A stretch of DNA of 39,336 nucleotides from Bacillota bacterium (lineage in GTDB: Bacteria > Bacillota > Clostridia > Oscillospirales > Oscillospiraceae): assembly GCA_021199635.1 (NCBI GenBank), contig JAJQHS010000112.1, positions 1-39,336 of the forward strand. The letters are read 5' to 3'. Shown here in pieces: positions 33,598 to 39,076 of this stretch. Below the pieces are notes generated by a model. That model did no database searches. It was not told the origin of the DNA and saw only the letters and a list, made by a program, of their open reading frames with translations. A program made the translations under genes and the position numbers. How positions within the stretch are numbered: the stretch's first letter is position 1; each line of letters starts with the position of its first letter.

Positions 33598-34461
33598 TTA
33601 CTTCCTTTCAGTTGACTTTGTCCGATTATTGACACAGGTGTCCACCATATCTCGGATGAATTGGTCGTAGTTGGTGTTGAGCAGTGCTGTGAACAGTGCA
33701 TCAATGACATTCAGTGTGGAGATCCGGCTGGACATTCCGCCCAACCGGTCCCAGCTTTCACTGGCATCCACGCAGAGCGTATACTTGCAAATGCGGGCAA
33801 CTGAGTTGTCGGTGGAGGCAGTCAATGCAACGGTATCTACCCGATGGCGGCGCAGCTCCTGGGCAACCTCAATAATGTCATCGGTTTCACCAGTGTAGGA
33901 AATGAGGAAGGCCAGCACGCCATTCTCGGTGTTCTTTGCCTGAATCAGCATAGAAACGCGATCGCTAAAGGCTGTAGATGGGATTTTCAGCCGCATACAT
34001 TTAAATTGTGCATCCTTTGCTACCACATTCGACGGACCGACACCGTAAAAATCGATCCGTTTGGCTGCGGCCATCAGGCTCACCACCGTTTCGAGGGTTG
34101 CACCGTCGACAATATGGCTGGTGTCCAGTATTGAGGCTGCATTTTGCTGGGATACCTTCTCCAGTACCTCCCCGACCGAGTCATATCGGCTTACGGGTGC
34201 CCGATTGCCGCGGAGAATATCCTGGTGCTTGTACTGGTTCTGCGCCGCGGAAAGCATCATGCGAAAGCTGGTGTAGCTGTCTATCCCCAGCTTTCTGCAT
34301 AGCCGCTTCACAGTCGTCGTGGAAGTAAAGGTCTTCTCGCTTAATTCCACGATTCCCATGCTGCATACGTCTTTATAATGTTCCAGAATATAATCTGCCA
34401 CGTGGCGCTCTGAAGGCGACAAGTCCTTAATTTCCGCCATCTTAATCAGAATATTCCCCAT
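33598..34461 (-). CDS. MurR/RpiR family transcriptional regulator
   Basis: A 287-residue regulator. The N-terminal RpiR helix-turn-helix includes LSPSERHVADYILEHY, then SEKTFTSTTTVKRLCRKLG (recognition helix). The C-terminal SIS domain (about 120-260) shows KRIDFYGVGPSNVVAKD and LISYTGETDDIIEVAQEL, which bind sugar phosphates. It is the last gene of the PTS operon and the likely local regulator, sensing a phosphorylated intermediate. GGAGG precedes the ATG. The palindrome at 39164-39188 is a candidate target. Confidence 0.93.
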   Translation of the reverse strand: MGNILIKMAEIKDLSPSERHVADYILEHYKDVCSMGIVELSEKTFTSTTTVKRLCRKLGIDSYTSFRMMLSAAQNQYKHQDILRGNRAPVSRYDSVGEVLEKVSQQNAASILDTSHIVDGATLETVVSLMAAAKRIDFYGVGPSNVVAKDAQFKCMRLKIPSTAFSDRVSMLIQAKNTENGVLAFLISYTGETDDIIEVAQELRRHRVDTVALTASTDNSVARICKYTLCVDASESWDRLGGMSSRISTLNVIDALFTALLNTNYDQFIRDMVDTCVNNRTKSTERK

Positions 34462-34476: not shown

Positions 34477-34740
34477 TCACAGCTTCTCAGCTTCAAAAAC
34501 ACCTCGTATTGTATCGGCGATCTCCTTTTCATTCTCACCGTCCACGGTGACAGTAATCATCTCGTTCTGCTTCACCTGAAGCGCCATGACCGCAAACATC
34601 CGCTTCGCATCGGCCGTTTTGCCGCCGTGAGCGATTGTAATGACTGTATCTTTATAGGGCTTAACTGCCTTGACCAGCAGTCCAACAGGTCTGGCATGCA
34701 GTCCCATCTCATCGTGAATCCGGTAGTCAAACGATACCAT
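34477..34740 (-). CDS. HPr-family phosphocarrier without the regulatory serine
   Basis: An 87-residue HPr paralogue. The phosphoaccepting His15 is in GLHARPVG. At the position of regulatory Ser46 (LKSIMGVM in Bacillus HPr), this protein has AKRMFAVM, with Arg47. It can thus relay phosphate from EI to the PTS but should not be a target of HPr kinase or serve as a CcpA co-regulator. GGAGG precedes the ATG. It lies between the membrane helical protein and the RpiR regulator, so it may be dedicated to this transporter. Confidence 0.9.
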   Translation of the reverse strand: MVSFDYRIHDEMGLHARPVGLLVKAVKPYKDTVITIAHGGKTADAKRMFAVMALQVKQNEMITVTVDGENEKEIADTIRGVFEAEKL

Positions 34741-34752
34741 CCTTGCTCCTCC

Positions 34753-35484
34753 TTACTCGCGCTCCAAGACTGTGTGGTCCTCCAATGCTGCTTTAATCAT
34801 ATCCGAATAGTAGGAATTTTGCAAGTTCTTTCTTGCGCGCTTCAGATAAATCTGTACCATGTGGCTGTCCCCGGAAAAGTGATAAAGCTTGGCCAGCCTG
34901 TATTGGAGGATGCCACGTTCCACAGGGTCTGCGGTGGCTGCTGCCTGCGTTTTCATTAGGGGGATCAGGCTTGTGTCACGGTCCACATACACGCCAATGA
35001 TCTGGTTTGCATCCTCAATCATTTTCTGGTACTTCCCGCCCCTGCGATTGGCTTTGGTTTTGCAGAGAAAATCTACCAACTGATCGCGGCTGATTCGGGC
35101 CTGCTGGCCGTTTCCGGCAGAGGCAAAGTAAGACAGTCGGCTCTGATAAAACGCCAGCCGATCCCGGGGCTGGAGTTTCTGCTTGTCCAGCTGGGCGATC
35201 AGGGCACAAATGTCCGCATCGTTTCCCAGCTTCATCTGGCCTTCCAGCCGGTAAAGGAGCAAGACGGAATTCCGGAACACAAGGCGGAGCAGACGGTTAT
35301 GCTCCAGGCGCTCCAAGTAGAGCGGCGTATCCACGTGATACAGCATCCTAAGCGTCTTTTCCGCGTAAGCGCGAGCGGTGCCTAGCAGCCACAGGCTTAG
35401 GAACACCAGCAACATCATCCCAGCCGTCAGGAATATTACCCACCAGCGCACATGCTGCGATACAATAAGGAAGAAGCTGTCCAT
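34753..35484 (-). CDS. Membrane-anchored helical (TPR-like) protein in the PTS operon
   Basis: A 243-residue protein of no recognized family. Residues about 14-35 are one hydrophobic helix, and positive residues after it suggest a cytoplasmic C-terminus. The rest is almost all helical, with repeat-like units such as LIAQLDKQKLQPRDRLAFYQSRLSY and ERGILQYRLAKLYHFSGD, resembling tetratricopeptide repeats. It starts 5 bases after the IIA stop and ends 12 bases before the HPr gene, so it is an integral operon member. A scaffold or regulator of the permease is inference. Confidence 0.82.
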   Translation of the reverse strand: MDSFFLIVSQHVRWWVIFLTAGMMLLVFLSLWLLGTARAYAEKTLRMLYHVDTPLYLERLEHNRLLRLVFRNSVLLLYRLEGQMKLGNDADICALIAQLDKQKLQPRDRLAFYQSRLSYFASAGNGQQARISRDQLVDFLCKTKANRRGGKYQKMIEDANQIIGVYVDRDTSLIPLMKTQAAATADPVERGILQYRLAKLYHFSGDSHMVQIYLKRARKNLQNSYYSDMIKAALEDHTVLERE

Positions 35485-35489
35485 GTCGC

Positions 35490-35879
35490 TTATTCCTTTG
35501 GGGGATAGATCAGAATGGACTGCAACGTCACATCCCGGGCCAGCTCCGCCAACTCATAAGCAGACATCTCTAGATGGAATGAAATCTCCGAGTATGCGGC
35601 GGTATTGATACCGGCCACTACCGCCCAATCAGGATGCGCCGAGCAGATCACAGCTGCCGTACGAAACGGGGAACCTCCGGCGAGGTCACAGGCGAATAGG
35701 ACCTGGGCATCCGCAATTTGTGCCAGCACCAGATTCAGTCGGTTCTGGAGAATCTCCAGAGAGTCCCCTTCATCAAAATCCACGAAGTAAAAACCTTCCA
35801 CATCCCCTACCAGCATACCCAGGTTCCGCTGCATGGCGGAAGCATAGCCGCCATGACCTGTGACGATAACTTTGGACAT
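35490..35879 (-). CDS. PTS mannose-family IIA component
   Basis: A 129-residue EIIA-Man domain that takes phosphate from HPr. The phosphorylated His9 lies in IVTGHGGYASAM; the second conserved region is LFACDLAGGSPFRTAAVI. It is a free-standing IIA, as in Aga/Gam-type systems. AGGAGG precedes the ATG. Confidence 0.94.
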   Translation of the reverse strand: MSKVIVTGHGGYASAMQRNLGMLVGDVEGFYFVDFDEGDSLEILQNRLNLVLAQIADAQVLFACDLAGGSPFRTAAVICSAHPDWAVVAGINTAAYSEISFHLEMSAYELAELARDVTLQSILIYPPKE

Positions 35880-35999
35880 TTTGTTTCCCTCCTTTTAATC
35901 CGTTGAAACATGGATAAGAATCGCAGAGGACACCGCTCAAATGTCATTTGGCTGAGGAAGCGTACCACTGGCAATAATCCAATAGACAATAGAGGCTCA

Positions 36000-36024
36000 G
36001 GGGAAAGCCCATTGTGCTTTCCCC
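36000..36024 (-). other. Intercistronic stem-loop in the PTS operon
   Basis: GGGGAAAGC (36000-36008) pairs with GCTTTCCCC (36016-36024), loop of 7. It sits in the 160-base gap between the SIS gene and IIA. There is no T-run on the leftward side, so it may shape mRNA stability rather than end transcription. Confidence 0.6.
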
Positions 36025-36039
36025 CAAAGCCTGTGGACG

Positions 36040-36801
36040 TTACATGTTGCTGTTATCAAAGACAATTCTGCGGTAGTCAGCGTAAACCTCGTGCATGTAT
36101 TCTTTCGGTACCTGTGTTACATTCGGGGAGACGAAAATATGCATTTGGTGGCCCAACCTCTCCAGCCGCAAGGCTGTCTCCGAAGCGATAGACTGTGCAA
36201 TGGTGATTGCAGCAACGGTGGACGAAGCTCCGACCTTCTGATGGTAGCCGGGAACAGCAACCAGTGCATCCTCCAGCGGGCAGCAGTTGTCAATGAGAAT
36301 GTCCGCGTAATCGCCCAACTTTCTGCCGGAGGAATGCGTAGCCATTGCCTTCCTATAATTTTCGCCGCTGGTGATGGCTATGACCTTCAACCCCCGTTCC
36401 TTGGAATACATGGCCGCCTCGATCGGTGCTGCATTCAATCCGCCATGGGAAAAGACAATCATGACCTCGCCTTCCTGGAAGTGATAGCTTTGCAGAAAGT
36501 TGGCGATATAACCCTCCTGACGCTCGATCCACAACAGCTCACGGGCACCGCCAGGACCAATTACATTGCTCCACATCAGGCGCGGATCCATGCATGGATG
36601 CCATCCCACCAATCCACCGTAGCGGGGAAAAACATCCTGAACCGGAAGTACACTGTGTCCGCTGCCAAATAGATGCACCAATTTGCCGGAGTGGATCGCG
36701 GCCGCGCATAGATCGGCGGCAGCCTGGATATTGTTAGATTGTTCCTGGTCGATTGTTGTGATGACCTCTGAAATTTGATTCAGGTAATCCAGTTGAGCCA
36801 T
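36040..36801 (-). CDS. SIS-domain sugar-phosphate protein (UPF0309 type)
   Basis: A 253-residue SIS-domain protein: KLVHLFGSGHSVLPVQDVF, then VMIVFSHGGLNAAPIEAAMYS and VIAITSGEN. The overall pattern matches the UPF0309 group of sugar-isomerase-domain proteins. It probably isomerizes or deaminates a sugar phosphate produced by this PTS, which would point to an amino-sugar-like substrate. This is inference: no other catabolic enzyme is present. AGGAGG precedes the ATG. Confidence 0.88.
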   Translation of the reverse strand: MAQLDYLNQISEVITTIDQEQSNNIQAAADLCAAAIHSGKLVHLFGSGHSVLPVQDVFPRYGGLVGWHPCMDPRLMWSNVIGPGGARELLWIERQEGYIANFLQSYHFQEGEVMIVFSHGGLNAAPIEAAMYSKERGLKVIAITSGENYRKAMATHSSGRKLGDYADILIDNCCPLEDALVAVPGYHQKVGASSTVAAITIAQSIASETALRLERLGHQMHIFVSPNVTQVPKEYMHEVYADYRRIVFDNSNM

Positions 36802-36854: not shown

Positions 36855-37733
36855 TCAGGCAAAAGCGCCGACGACAGGAATGTAGCCAATTGCGGTAAGG
36901 ACTGCGGCCAGGGCCAAAATCAGGACCATGATGGCCAGTGGAGTCCAGTTCCTCTTGGTGTACAACCGGTACACACCCAGTGTAAGGGCAAGGGGCACGA
37001 TTTGCGGGAAGACGCTGTTGAGCAGATTGTCGAGGTTGAACACGGAGATAATACCGTTTACATAGGTGCCGGTCGTCTCATCGAAAACCTGAGCAGTGGT
37101 CTTGATGTCGATATTGAGTGAGCAGGACACAAAGCTGGCAGTCAGTGCGCCCACCACGATCAGGCCCAAAATGGTAACAGCCTGCATAATGCGGTCCAGC
37201 TGTCCCGATGCCATAAATCGTTGGACGCCCTCCAAACCTGCCTTATAGCCCAGATTAAACAGCTTCCAGCTTAGAAAATATGTGCCCGCAGGGTATATAA
37301 GGATATAGATAACTGCGCCTACCCATGGAGCTGCGGTCAGCGCGCTGGCAACCGACAGGCAGATAGTCAGAAGCAACGGTATGATGGTAGCGACCCACAA
37401 GGAGTCACCAATCGCAGACGTGGGGCCGATCAGCGCCACTTTTGCCTCCTGAATAGCCTCGGGGCTACCATTGCCGTTAGCCAGCTGCTCCTCCATGCCG
37501 ATGGCAATGCCATTGCAAATAGAGCCGACCTGGGACTCGGTATTAAACAACGTAATGTGACGCTGGAGAGCGGCGGACTTATCCTCTTTGGTGTCATACA
37601 GCTCTTCAATCACCGGCGCCATGGACTGTCCAAAGGCCATGCCCAGCATAGTCTCGGCTTGCTGCGAACATCCGTTCCAAAAGAACCAGTTAAGGAACGA
37701 CTTTTTTAGCGTTTTTTTGCTTACGGTCTTCAT
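36855..37733 (-). CDS. PTS mannose-family IID component
   Basis: A 292-residue membrane component. The cytoplasmic N-terminal half contains SFLNWFFWNGCSQQAETMLG and ALIGPTSAIGDSLW, both typical of IID; hydrophobic segments follow in the second half. ATG at 37733 is chosen because GAGGGGG precedes it and the upstream frame is inside IIC. It forms the permease with IIC. Confidence 0.95.
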   Translation of the reverse strand: MKTVSKKTLKKSFLNWFFWNGCSQQAETMLGMAFGQSMAPVIEELYDTKEDKSAALQRHITLFNTESQVGSICNGIAIGMEEQLANGNGSPEAIQEAKVALIGPTSAIGDSLWVATIIPLLLTICLSVASALTAAPWVGAVIYILIYPAGTYFLSWKLFNLGYKAGLEGVQRFMASGQLDRIMQAVTILGLIVVGALTASFVSCSLNIDIKTTAQVFDETTGTYVNGIISVFNLDNLLNSVFPQIVPLALTLGVYRLYTKRNWTPLAIMVLILALAAVLTAIGYIPVVGAFA

Positions 37734-37735
37734 AT

Positions 37736-38521
37736 TTACGTTTCCCCCTCTGCGGTGCTGCCACTCATCGCAAAGTAGCAGATCACGGCCATGATGGTTG
37801 CAACTACAGCCACAGCCATAGTGCTCAGGCCAAAGTATGTGACCAGAACAAATCCTCCAAGGAATATAGCCCAATGCGCGCCTTTTTTTACCAGGAAGGA
37901 GAGAATGATGCCCATTCCGAGCGCAGCCATCATGCTGCCAAAGGCGGAAATGCCGGTAACGAACCAGTCGGGAATGGCAATTCCGCCAGCTGCTCCGGCC
38001 ACACGAATGGCGCTAAGGACAATAACTGCGGGGATAAACCGGCACAAGAATCCGATGACCTGCCCGCCAATGACGTTCGGCATCCACATCCGTTTGGTGT
38101 CACCACTCTCTGCGACCTTGTTTGCCCAACGGTTGACGAACACATCCAGAGCATAATGGACGTTCCACATAGTTCCGCCAACCACACCGCCAACACCGGC
38201 ACCGGTAAAGGCCAGGCCGATCAGTGCAGCTTCATCCCCAACGGTGTTCTTGAGTGCAATTGCCATAGCGGTTCCTATGTAGGTGGCATAGGATAGATCC
38301 CAGGCCACCGCGCCACCAGGGGTGACATTAGCCAGGTAAGCAATTTGCAAAGGAATACCCACGAGCATGGCAGTGGACATATCTCCCATGATAAGTCCTA
38401 CCACAAAGGCCGCAATCAGCGGTCGGCCAAGGCAATACCACCCGATGGTATTGCCCACGACGGATCCGATCGCGCCCAGGTAGATAAACAGGGCGATCAG
38501 GATCACCTGCAATGTGTTCAT
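37736..38521 (-). CDS. PTS mannose/sorbose-family IIC component
   Basis: A 261-residue integral membrane permease. The N-terminal stretch GNTIGWYCLGRPLIAAFVVG and the following MGDMSTAMLVGIPLQIAYL are diagnostic of the IIC group (AgaC-like). It ends 2 bases before IID. Confidence 0.95.
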   Translation of the reverse strand: MNTLQVILIALFIYLGAIGSVVGNTIGWYCLGRPLIAAFVVGLIMGDMSTAMLVGIPLQIAYLANVTPGGAVAWDLSYATYIGTAMAIALKNTVGDEAALIGLAFTGAGVGGVVGGTMWNVHYALDVFVNRWANKVAESGDTKRMWMPNVIGGQVIGFLCRFIPAVIVLSAIRVAGAAGGIAIPDWFVTGISAFGSMMAALGMGIILSFLVKKGAHWAIFLGGFVLVTYFGLSTMAVAVVATIMAVICYFAMSGSTAEGET

Positions 38522-38575: not shown

Positions 38576-39076
38576 CTATTTCAGCCGGATACCCTTGCGG
38601 ATGTCGGCCCACTCCTTTGCCGGGGATTTCGGTACTGTCTGGTAAATCAGCCTTATCCCGTCGGCGCTGATGCTGTCGAACAGGCGGATATCGTCTTCAC
38701 TGGCAAAAAAGACACTTCCCCCTCCTTTGGTAAGGTTGTATTTTGTGCCGGGTCGTTTTGCCGCGTTGCCAATAATCACCATCTCGCATTGCTTTAGCTC
38801 CTCCCGCAAATTCCCCAGATCCTGGGGAAAACGGGTAACGAACAGATGATTCCCATCGCTTGGCAACGCGAACATCTCCTTTGCCTGGGCCATAGTGACC
38901 ACATGTGCCTTATACTGCCTAGGAATACCCATGAGCATGATGGACTGGAGCATAGTGTTTGCCGCCAATGCGTCGTCAATAGCCACAATTTTGTCAATTT
39001 TCAGGTGCCCGCACCAAGCGGTGACAATTTGCCCATGAATCAGTCGGTCGTCTATCCGAACATAATGGTGTCCCAT
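38576..39076 (-). CDS. PTS mannose-family IIB component
   Basis: A 166-residue phosphotransfer protein, first gene of the operon. The phosphorylated His14 is in VRIDDRLIHGQIV. Other typical parts are AIDDALAANTMLQSIM and GTKYNLTKGGGSVF. It phosphorylates the incoming sugar during transport. GGAGG lies before the ATG. Confidence 0.95.
   Translation of the reverse strand: MGHHYVRIDDRLIHGQIVTAWCGHLKIDKIVAIDDALAANTMLQSIMLMGIPRQYKAHVVTMAQAKEMFALPSDGNHLFVTRFPQDLGNLREELKQCEMVIIGNAAKRPGTKYNLTKGGGSVFFASEDDIRLFDSISADGIRLIYQTVPKSPAKEWADIRKGIRLK

Follow-up and report, generated by a model that had tools for sequence, protein, structure and literature searches.

A membrane-anchored, TPR-like protein encoded in mannose-family PTS operons of gut Clostridia: a putative accessory component of the importer

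In the window, a 39,336-nucleotide stretch of DNA from an Oscillospiraceae bacterium (contig JAJQHS010000112.1 of assembly GCA_021199635.1), a mannose-family PTS operon contains a gene (34753..35484, minus strand) for a 243-residue protein, here given the working name TPRX. The TPRX family is encoded almost exclusively inside mannose-family PTS operons of gut Clostridia. The mannose-family PTS is a known system, and TPRX is an undescribed extra component of it; no published description of PTS operons with a TPRX-like protein was found in a search of papers available without subscription. We suggest, with a probability of about one half, that TPRX is a docking platform, or tether, at the permease; among the soluble PTS proteins, the single-domain IIA is its likeliest partner.

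Results

The TPRX gene and its operon

The TPRX frame runs from an ATG codon at 35484 to 34753 and has a Shine-Dalgarno-like AAAGGA about 9 nt upstream of the start. The gap to the preceding IIA stop is 5 nt and that to the following HPr start 12 nt, in agreement with the tight packing between IIA and HPr reported in the first-pass annotation. Orthologues hold the same position in G947, G990, and G1127, and dN/dS is about 0.15 between two of them; thus the frame is not a chance one. For the pair G947 and G990, dN is 0.245 and dS, which is near saturation, 1.63, giving the ratio of 0.15. In this comparison TPRX evolves faster than IIA (0.12) and IID (0.06), yet it is clearly constrained, that is, under purifying selection.

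The operon lies on the minus strand in the order IIB, IIC, IID, SIS, IIA, TPRX, HPr, RpiR, and all products but TPRX were identified by Pfam. These are PTS IIB (38576..39076; PTSIIB_sorb, 1.2e-31), IIC (37736..38521; EII-Sor, 1.8e-46), IID (36855..37733; EIID-AGA, 1.3e-72), a protein of the SIS-domain sugar isomerase family (36040..36801; Pfam and NCBIfam NF002805), a single-domain mannose-family IIA (35490..35879; EIIA-man, 4.4e-13), HPr (34477..34740; PTS-HPr, 1.2e-21), and an RpiR-type regulator with HTH_6 and SIS domains (33598..34461). The operon therefore has all four subunits of a mannose-family PTS of the Aga/Sor/Man type, IIA, IIB, IIC, and IID, together with the histidine residues of IIA (His9, in 'VIVTGHGGY') and IIB. 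Against the NCBIfam model AgaF, the window IIA scores 89.7 bits, below the cut-off of 130. The operon begins some 260 bases short of the end of the contig, and no EI gene adjoins it. A second mannose-family PTS in the same genome (G000 contig 19, L018, 1287-5784) has the order EI-HPr-IIA-IIB-IIC-IID and is without TPRX.

The operon HPr retains His15 and has arginine in place of Ser46 ('DAKRMFAVMAL'), as judged from a by-eye alignment to canonical HPr; the absence of Ser46 had been noticed at first reading. The arginine is kept in the orthologous operons of G947, G990, and G1127, and the operon HPr of this clade should escape HPr-kinase control.

Window TPRX has no above-threshold family in Pfam, NCBIfam, PHROG, or PADLOC and no PDB sequence match. 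It matches no classical PTS domain (EI, HPr, IIA, IIB, IIC, or IID) in Pfam or NCBIfam; PADLOC and PHROG give no match to anti-phage defence or phage families, with single weak matches at chance level elsewhere. No Pfam TPR model matches the window protein, its best hit being DUF2225 (16.0 bits, cut-off 21). The best relative, that of G954, matches TPR_7 at 2.4e-6 with 27.6 bits, just below the cut-off of 27.9, so that neither protein reaches a TPR-clan motif above the curated Pfam threshold.

A single divergent family

Queried as a single sequence, TPRX retrieved nothing from the genome contig scan, the plasmids, or the PDB sequences, and only G009 among 149 relatives. The first impression of an orphan or scattered family drawn from these searches was superseded by profile searches. 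In G102, by-eye reading of the neighbourhoods of IIA relatives revealed a helical protein of 216 residues with a membrane anchor, encoded between IID and IIA. A profile of the G102 family, run against 394 genomes sampled across the order, detected it in 13 of them. Named genomes, when scanned, yielded 22 TPRX loci, all in Butyricicoccus, Agathobaculum, or Intestinibacillus; one of them (L129) was missed by the gene caller and is counted because the match is present. Among 231 genomes of the window's own family, G947, G990, G934, and G954 carry TPRX. A class-wide search of 343 genomes added one further full-length member, G708, from another family, and a phylum sample of 130 genomes gave no clear member elsewhere. 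Short or isolated TPR-like matches in G357, G603, G676, G545, and G1034 were left out of the counts. The simple gene caller often picked long antisense ORFs, and only homology-supported genes were used.

Identity between the TPRX lineages is only 15-40%, and homology was therefore tested out of sample. With the window protein left out, a profile of the Butyricicoccaceae and G708 members found window TPRX at E 3e-6; after G009 was added, the score rose to 50.6 bits (E 2.9e-14 in a search of 3000 proteins). Conversely, a profile of the window and G009 members found G708 at 2e-6. The Butyricicoccaceae-only profile misses window TPRX in the window's own genome (hhalign E 0.005) and is thus too weak to reach it, so that the intermediates G708 and G009 carry the link. 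As judged by these sequence matches, the TPRX proteins form one very divergent family.

Association with PTS loci

TPRX lies inside mannose-family PTS loci, as a conserved member of the locus, in five of its six lineages: the window with three species of another genus, G934, G954, G708, and the Butyricicoccaceae. The sixth, G009, has it outside any PTS. The window and G102 were found via PTS loci and are not to be counted for linkage, and the G947, G990, and G1127 genes are orthologues of the window one. Among the members found by blind search, G934, G954, and G708 are all PTS-linked and G009 is not.

The window operon order is repeated in G947, G990, and G1127, the permease genes of the latter being cut by the contig end. 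The order is IIB-IIC-IID-SIS-IIA-TPRX-HAD hydrolase in G934, IIB-IIC-IID-NanE-TPRX-SIS in G954, and IIC-IID-IIB-TPRX in G708; with all ORFs listed, IIA is absent from the G954 and G708 loci. The 13 G102-family genomes have IIB-IIC-IID-TPRX-IIA-AgaS-YajC-NagA, and the succession IID-TPRX-IIA occurs in all 22 named Butyricicoccaceae loci. Thus, the constant neighbours of TPRX in PTS loci are IIB, IIC, and IID, and IIA adjoins it in the window clade (the window, G947, G990, and G1127), G934, and the Butyricicoccaceae. In genus g63, TPRX and IID are each present in three of 12 genomes, and the two mismatches (G1127 and G1128) are genes at contig ends. The G009 relative (L032, G009:C117, 5359-6027) follows a LysR gene and faces an acyl-CoA ligase/biotin carboxylase-like cluster with no PTS nearby; IID was not found in this genome, which is 85% complete. 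The first-pass annotation described TPRX as an unrecognized PTS-associated protein, which fits both the library searches and the five PTS-linked lineages. It took homologues scattered in unrelated loci as the sign to the contrary, and apart from G009 such scattering was not seen.

The IIDs linked to TPRX occupy four distinct positions in a tree of 71 IID proteins, and TPRX-less relatives stand close to each of them; gain of TPRX by different permease types, or its loss from them, has thus happened on more than one occasion. One TPRX label on this tree, in the G142 locus (L022), proved to be a false match to a HAD phosphatase and was removed. Sister PTSs with IID 61-67% identical to that of the window lack TPRX, and among about 48 other mannose PTS loci sampled across the class only one includes the gene; TPRX is therefore not essential to this transporter type.

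Predicted fold and topology

Hydropathy reveals one hydrophobic helix in TPRX, with a peak at about residues 21-41; together with the count of flanking charges it gives a predicted membrane helix at approximately residues 17-41 (35362..35436, minus strand). Positive charges follow this helix in all 11 family members examined. The positively charged flank of a membrane helix marks its cytoplasmic side (the positive-inside rule), and TPRX is therefore predicted to have its N-terminus outside and its C-terminus inside, with a cytosolic body. AlphaFold2 models of the window protein (pLDDT 83.5, pTM 0.66) and of the Butyricicoccus one (pLDDT 92.0, pTM 0.81) are both all-helical, with a long N-terminal helix (residues 2-51 in the window protein) followed by about five helical hairpins in succession. 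The matches listed by Foldseek for both models are mostly of TPR type (LGN, LapB, Rap, and kinesin light chain) and have high probability, none reaching E<=0.001. The best conserved stretch of the family is a C-terminal TPR-like hairpin at residues 187-220 (34825..34926, minus strand; 'ILQYRLAKLYHFSGDSHMVQIYLKRAR'), formed in the model by helices 187-204 and 207-220 and supported by the alignments. On the basis of these models the TPRX family is predicted to be TPR-like. A single membrane helix with a helical repeat body had been proposed from the sequence at first reading, and the two predictions concur with it, the TPR identity being below threshold in Pfam.

Link to IIA

The IIA proteins of the window and G934 are 49% identical, versus 33-37% between the window and its TPRX-less relatives (33-34% for G046, G001, and G019). 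For IIC and IID the relation is reversed (54-55% to G934 versus 61-67% to TPRX-less relatives, and 64-67% to G046, G001, and G019). By these identities, the IIA sequence follows the presence of TPRX, whereas IIC and IID do not. Replacement of IIA, TPRX, and SIS as one block could also produce this pattern.

In addition, the window, G947, G990, G1127, and G934 all have a strong RNA hairpin in the gap that separates SIS from IIA. The window hairpin (35996..36028, minus strand) has a 13-bp stem and a folding z-score of -3.5 for 35960-36039, and it sets the permease genes apart from IIA, TPRX, HPr, and RpiR. A strong hairpin is located between IID and TPRX in all 22 Butyricicoccaceae loci. A hairpin at either of these gaps places TPRX on the IIA side despite the opposite gene order; TPRX and IIA thus stand together in one sub-operon, downstream of a strong hairpin, in two lineages of different gene order. 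The stems are of 17 bp with a T tract in G947, G990, and G1127 (L142, L143, and L151) and terminator-like with T7 in Butyricicoccus (L115-L136); the G934 locus is L144. Through these hairpins, IIA-TPRX may be expressed at a level of its own. IIA abuts IID in G046 and G001, which lack TPRX. The placement of hairpins could reflect general operon layout, and neither of the two IIA signs proves contact.

Discussion

Some mannose-family PTS importers probably include TPRX as an accessory component. The N-terminal helix is predicted to anchor the protein in the membrane, leaving the TPR-like body in the cytoplasm. TPR-like solenoids typically bind proteins, and the body of TPRX may hold one of the soluble PTS proteins, with the single-domain IIA as the likeliest candidate, beside the IIC-IID permease and IIB. 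Such docking could speed up phosphate transfer locally or allow the availability of IIA to be tuned. In G954 and G708, IIA cannot be the sole locus-encoded partner, since it is missing from both loci. More tentatively, TPRX may be a dedicated fifth, membrane-tethered subunit that binds IIA, turns a phosphate relay that is otherwise diffusive as a rule into a membrane-bound assembly, and has been recruited to at least four permease subfamilies; we regard this as possible, though rather doubtful.

The classical mannose-family PTS has no TPR-like membrane-anchored subunit, and a comparable known layout is that of LapB/YciM, with one N-terminal membrane helix and a cytosolic TPR body, as predicted for TPRX from hydropathy, charge, and AlphaFold2. 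By analogy, TPRX could be an adaptor that delivers a subunit of the PTS, or an enzyme of the neighbourhood, to a protease or an assembly factor, and so controls the amount of permease and not the flow of phosphate. LapB structures are indeed among the top Foldseek matches of the Butyricicoccaceae model (probability 0.93-1.00, E 0.013-0.25) and are listed for the window model as well, but the E values stay above 0.001 and the matches are to TPR proteins in general. Moreover, TPRX has no sequence match to LapB and a different genomic context, it ends after the TPR-like hairpin without the rubredoxin-like metal domain and its CxxC pair, and no protease gene occurs in TPRX loci. We therefore consider an adaptor role unlikely.

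The neighbourhood in the window clade, where TPRX is packed with HPr and RpiR, would suit a signal relay, in which phosphorylation state decides whether TPRX holds HPr, RpiR, or another regulator at the permease or sets it free, and transport is coupled to gene expression in this way. However, HPr and RpiR adjoin TPRX only in this clade. HPr is absent from the TPRX loci of G954, G708, and the Butyricicoccaceae and from the TPRX-linked operon of G934, and the regulators differ, being of AraC type in the Butyricicoccaceae and of Mga/HTH_11 type in G708. The first-pass annotation proposed a scaffold that gathers IIA, HPr, or the regulator; HPr or RpiR as the constant partner is not supported by these lineages, and co-occurrence with a Ser46-less HPr is rejected as a general rule. 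A relay of this kind is accordingly improbable.

Membrane-anchored TPR proteins are common in bacteria, and one member of the family, in G009, lies outside any PTS; an unrelated protein of this sort could in principle have come to sit in PTS loci by chance. Yet the blind matches in G708, G934, and G954 each fall in PTS loci, with differing gene order and IID subfamily, and the probability that a gene picked at random in these genomes is no more than four genes away from an IID is roughly estimated at below 1%, which makes chance a disfavoured and quite improbable explanation. Finally, the IIC-IID part of Man-PTS is bound by known immunity proteins (PMC5077127), but a guard of this kind, closing the pore of the permease on its inner side to bacteriocins that use the mannose PTS as receptor, is very improbable for TPRX, which co-segregates with IIA and not with IIC/IID, differs in architecture, and has no bacteriocin genes seen beside it.

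Two other small proteins of mannose-PTS operons can be compared with the putative docking protein TPRX. The YajC-like protein is likewise a single-helix membrane accessory often encoded there, but it has about 90 residues and a sequence unrelated to TPRX; since both occur together in the Butyricicoccaceae, it is not replaced by TPRX in these bacteria. The other, ManO (DUF956), is a small additional product of man operons, and no TPRX member has a Pfam DUF956 match. YajC-like proteins recur in mannose-PTS operons of several families, beside IIA, IIB, or AgaS (L020 10683-10958, L049-L060, L068, L084, L088, and L107). Other small unannotated membrane proteins were observed in such operons as well, for instance in L101 (6832-7266; 144 residues, one N-terminal helix) and L068 (9088-9423; 111 residues, two helices). 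Further accessory parts of mannose-PTS may exist.

The PTS is among the best-studied bacterial importers, and the way its soluble carriers find the permease is usually treated as simple diffusion. Conservation of TPRX in cultured type strains (Butyricicoccus pullicaecorum and Agathobaculum desmolans) allows the idea of a PTS scaffold to be put to a direct test. Genes near TPRX encode NagA, AgaS-like, NanE, and SIS proteins (nagB-like and NagA in G947), suggesting that the substrates of the TPRX-linked PTS are amino sugars, plausibly derived from host glycans. If so, this uptake would matter for butyrate-producing gut bacteria.
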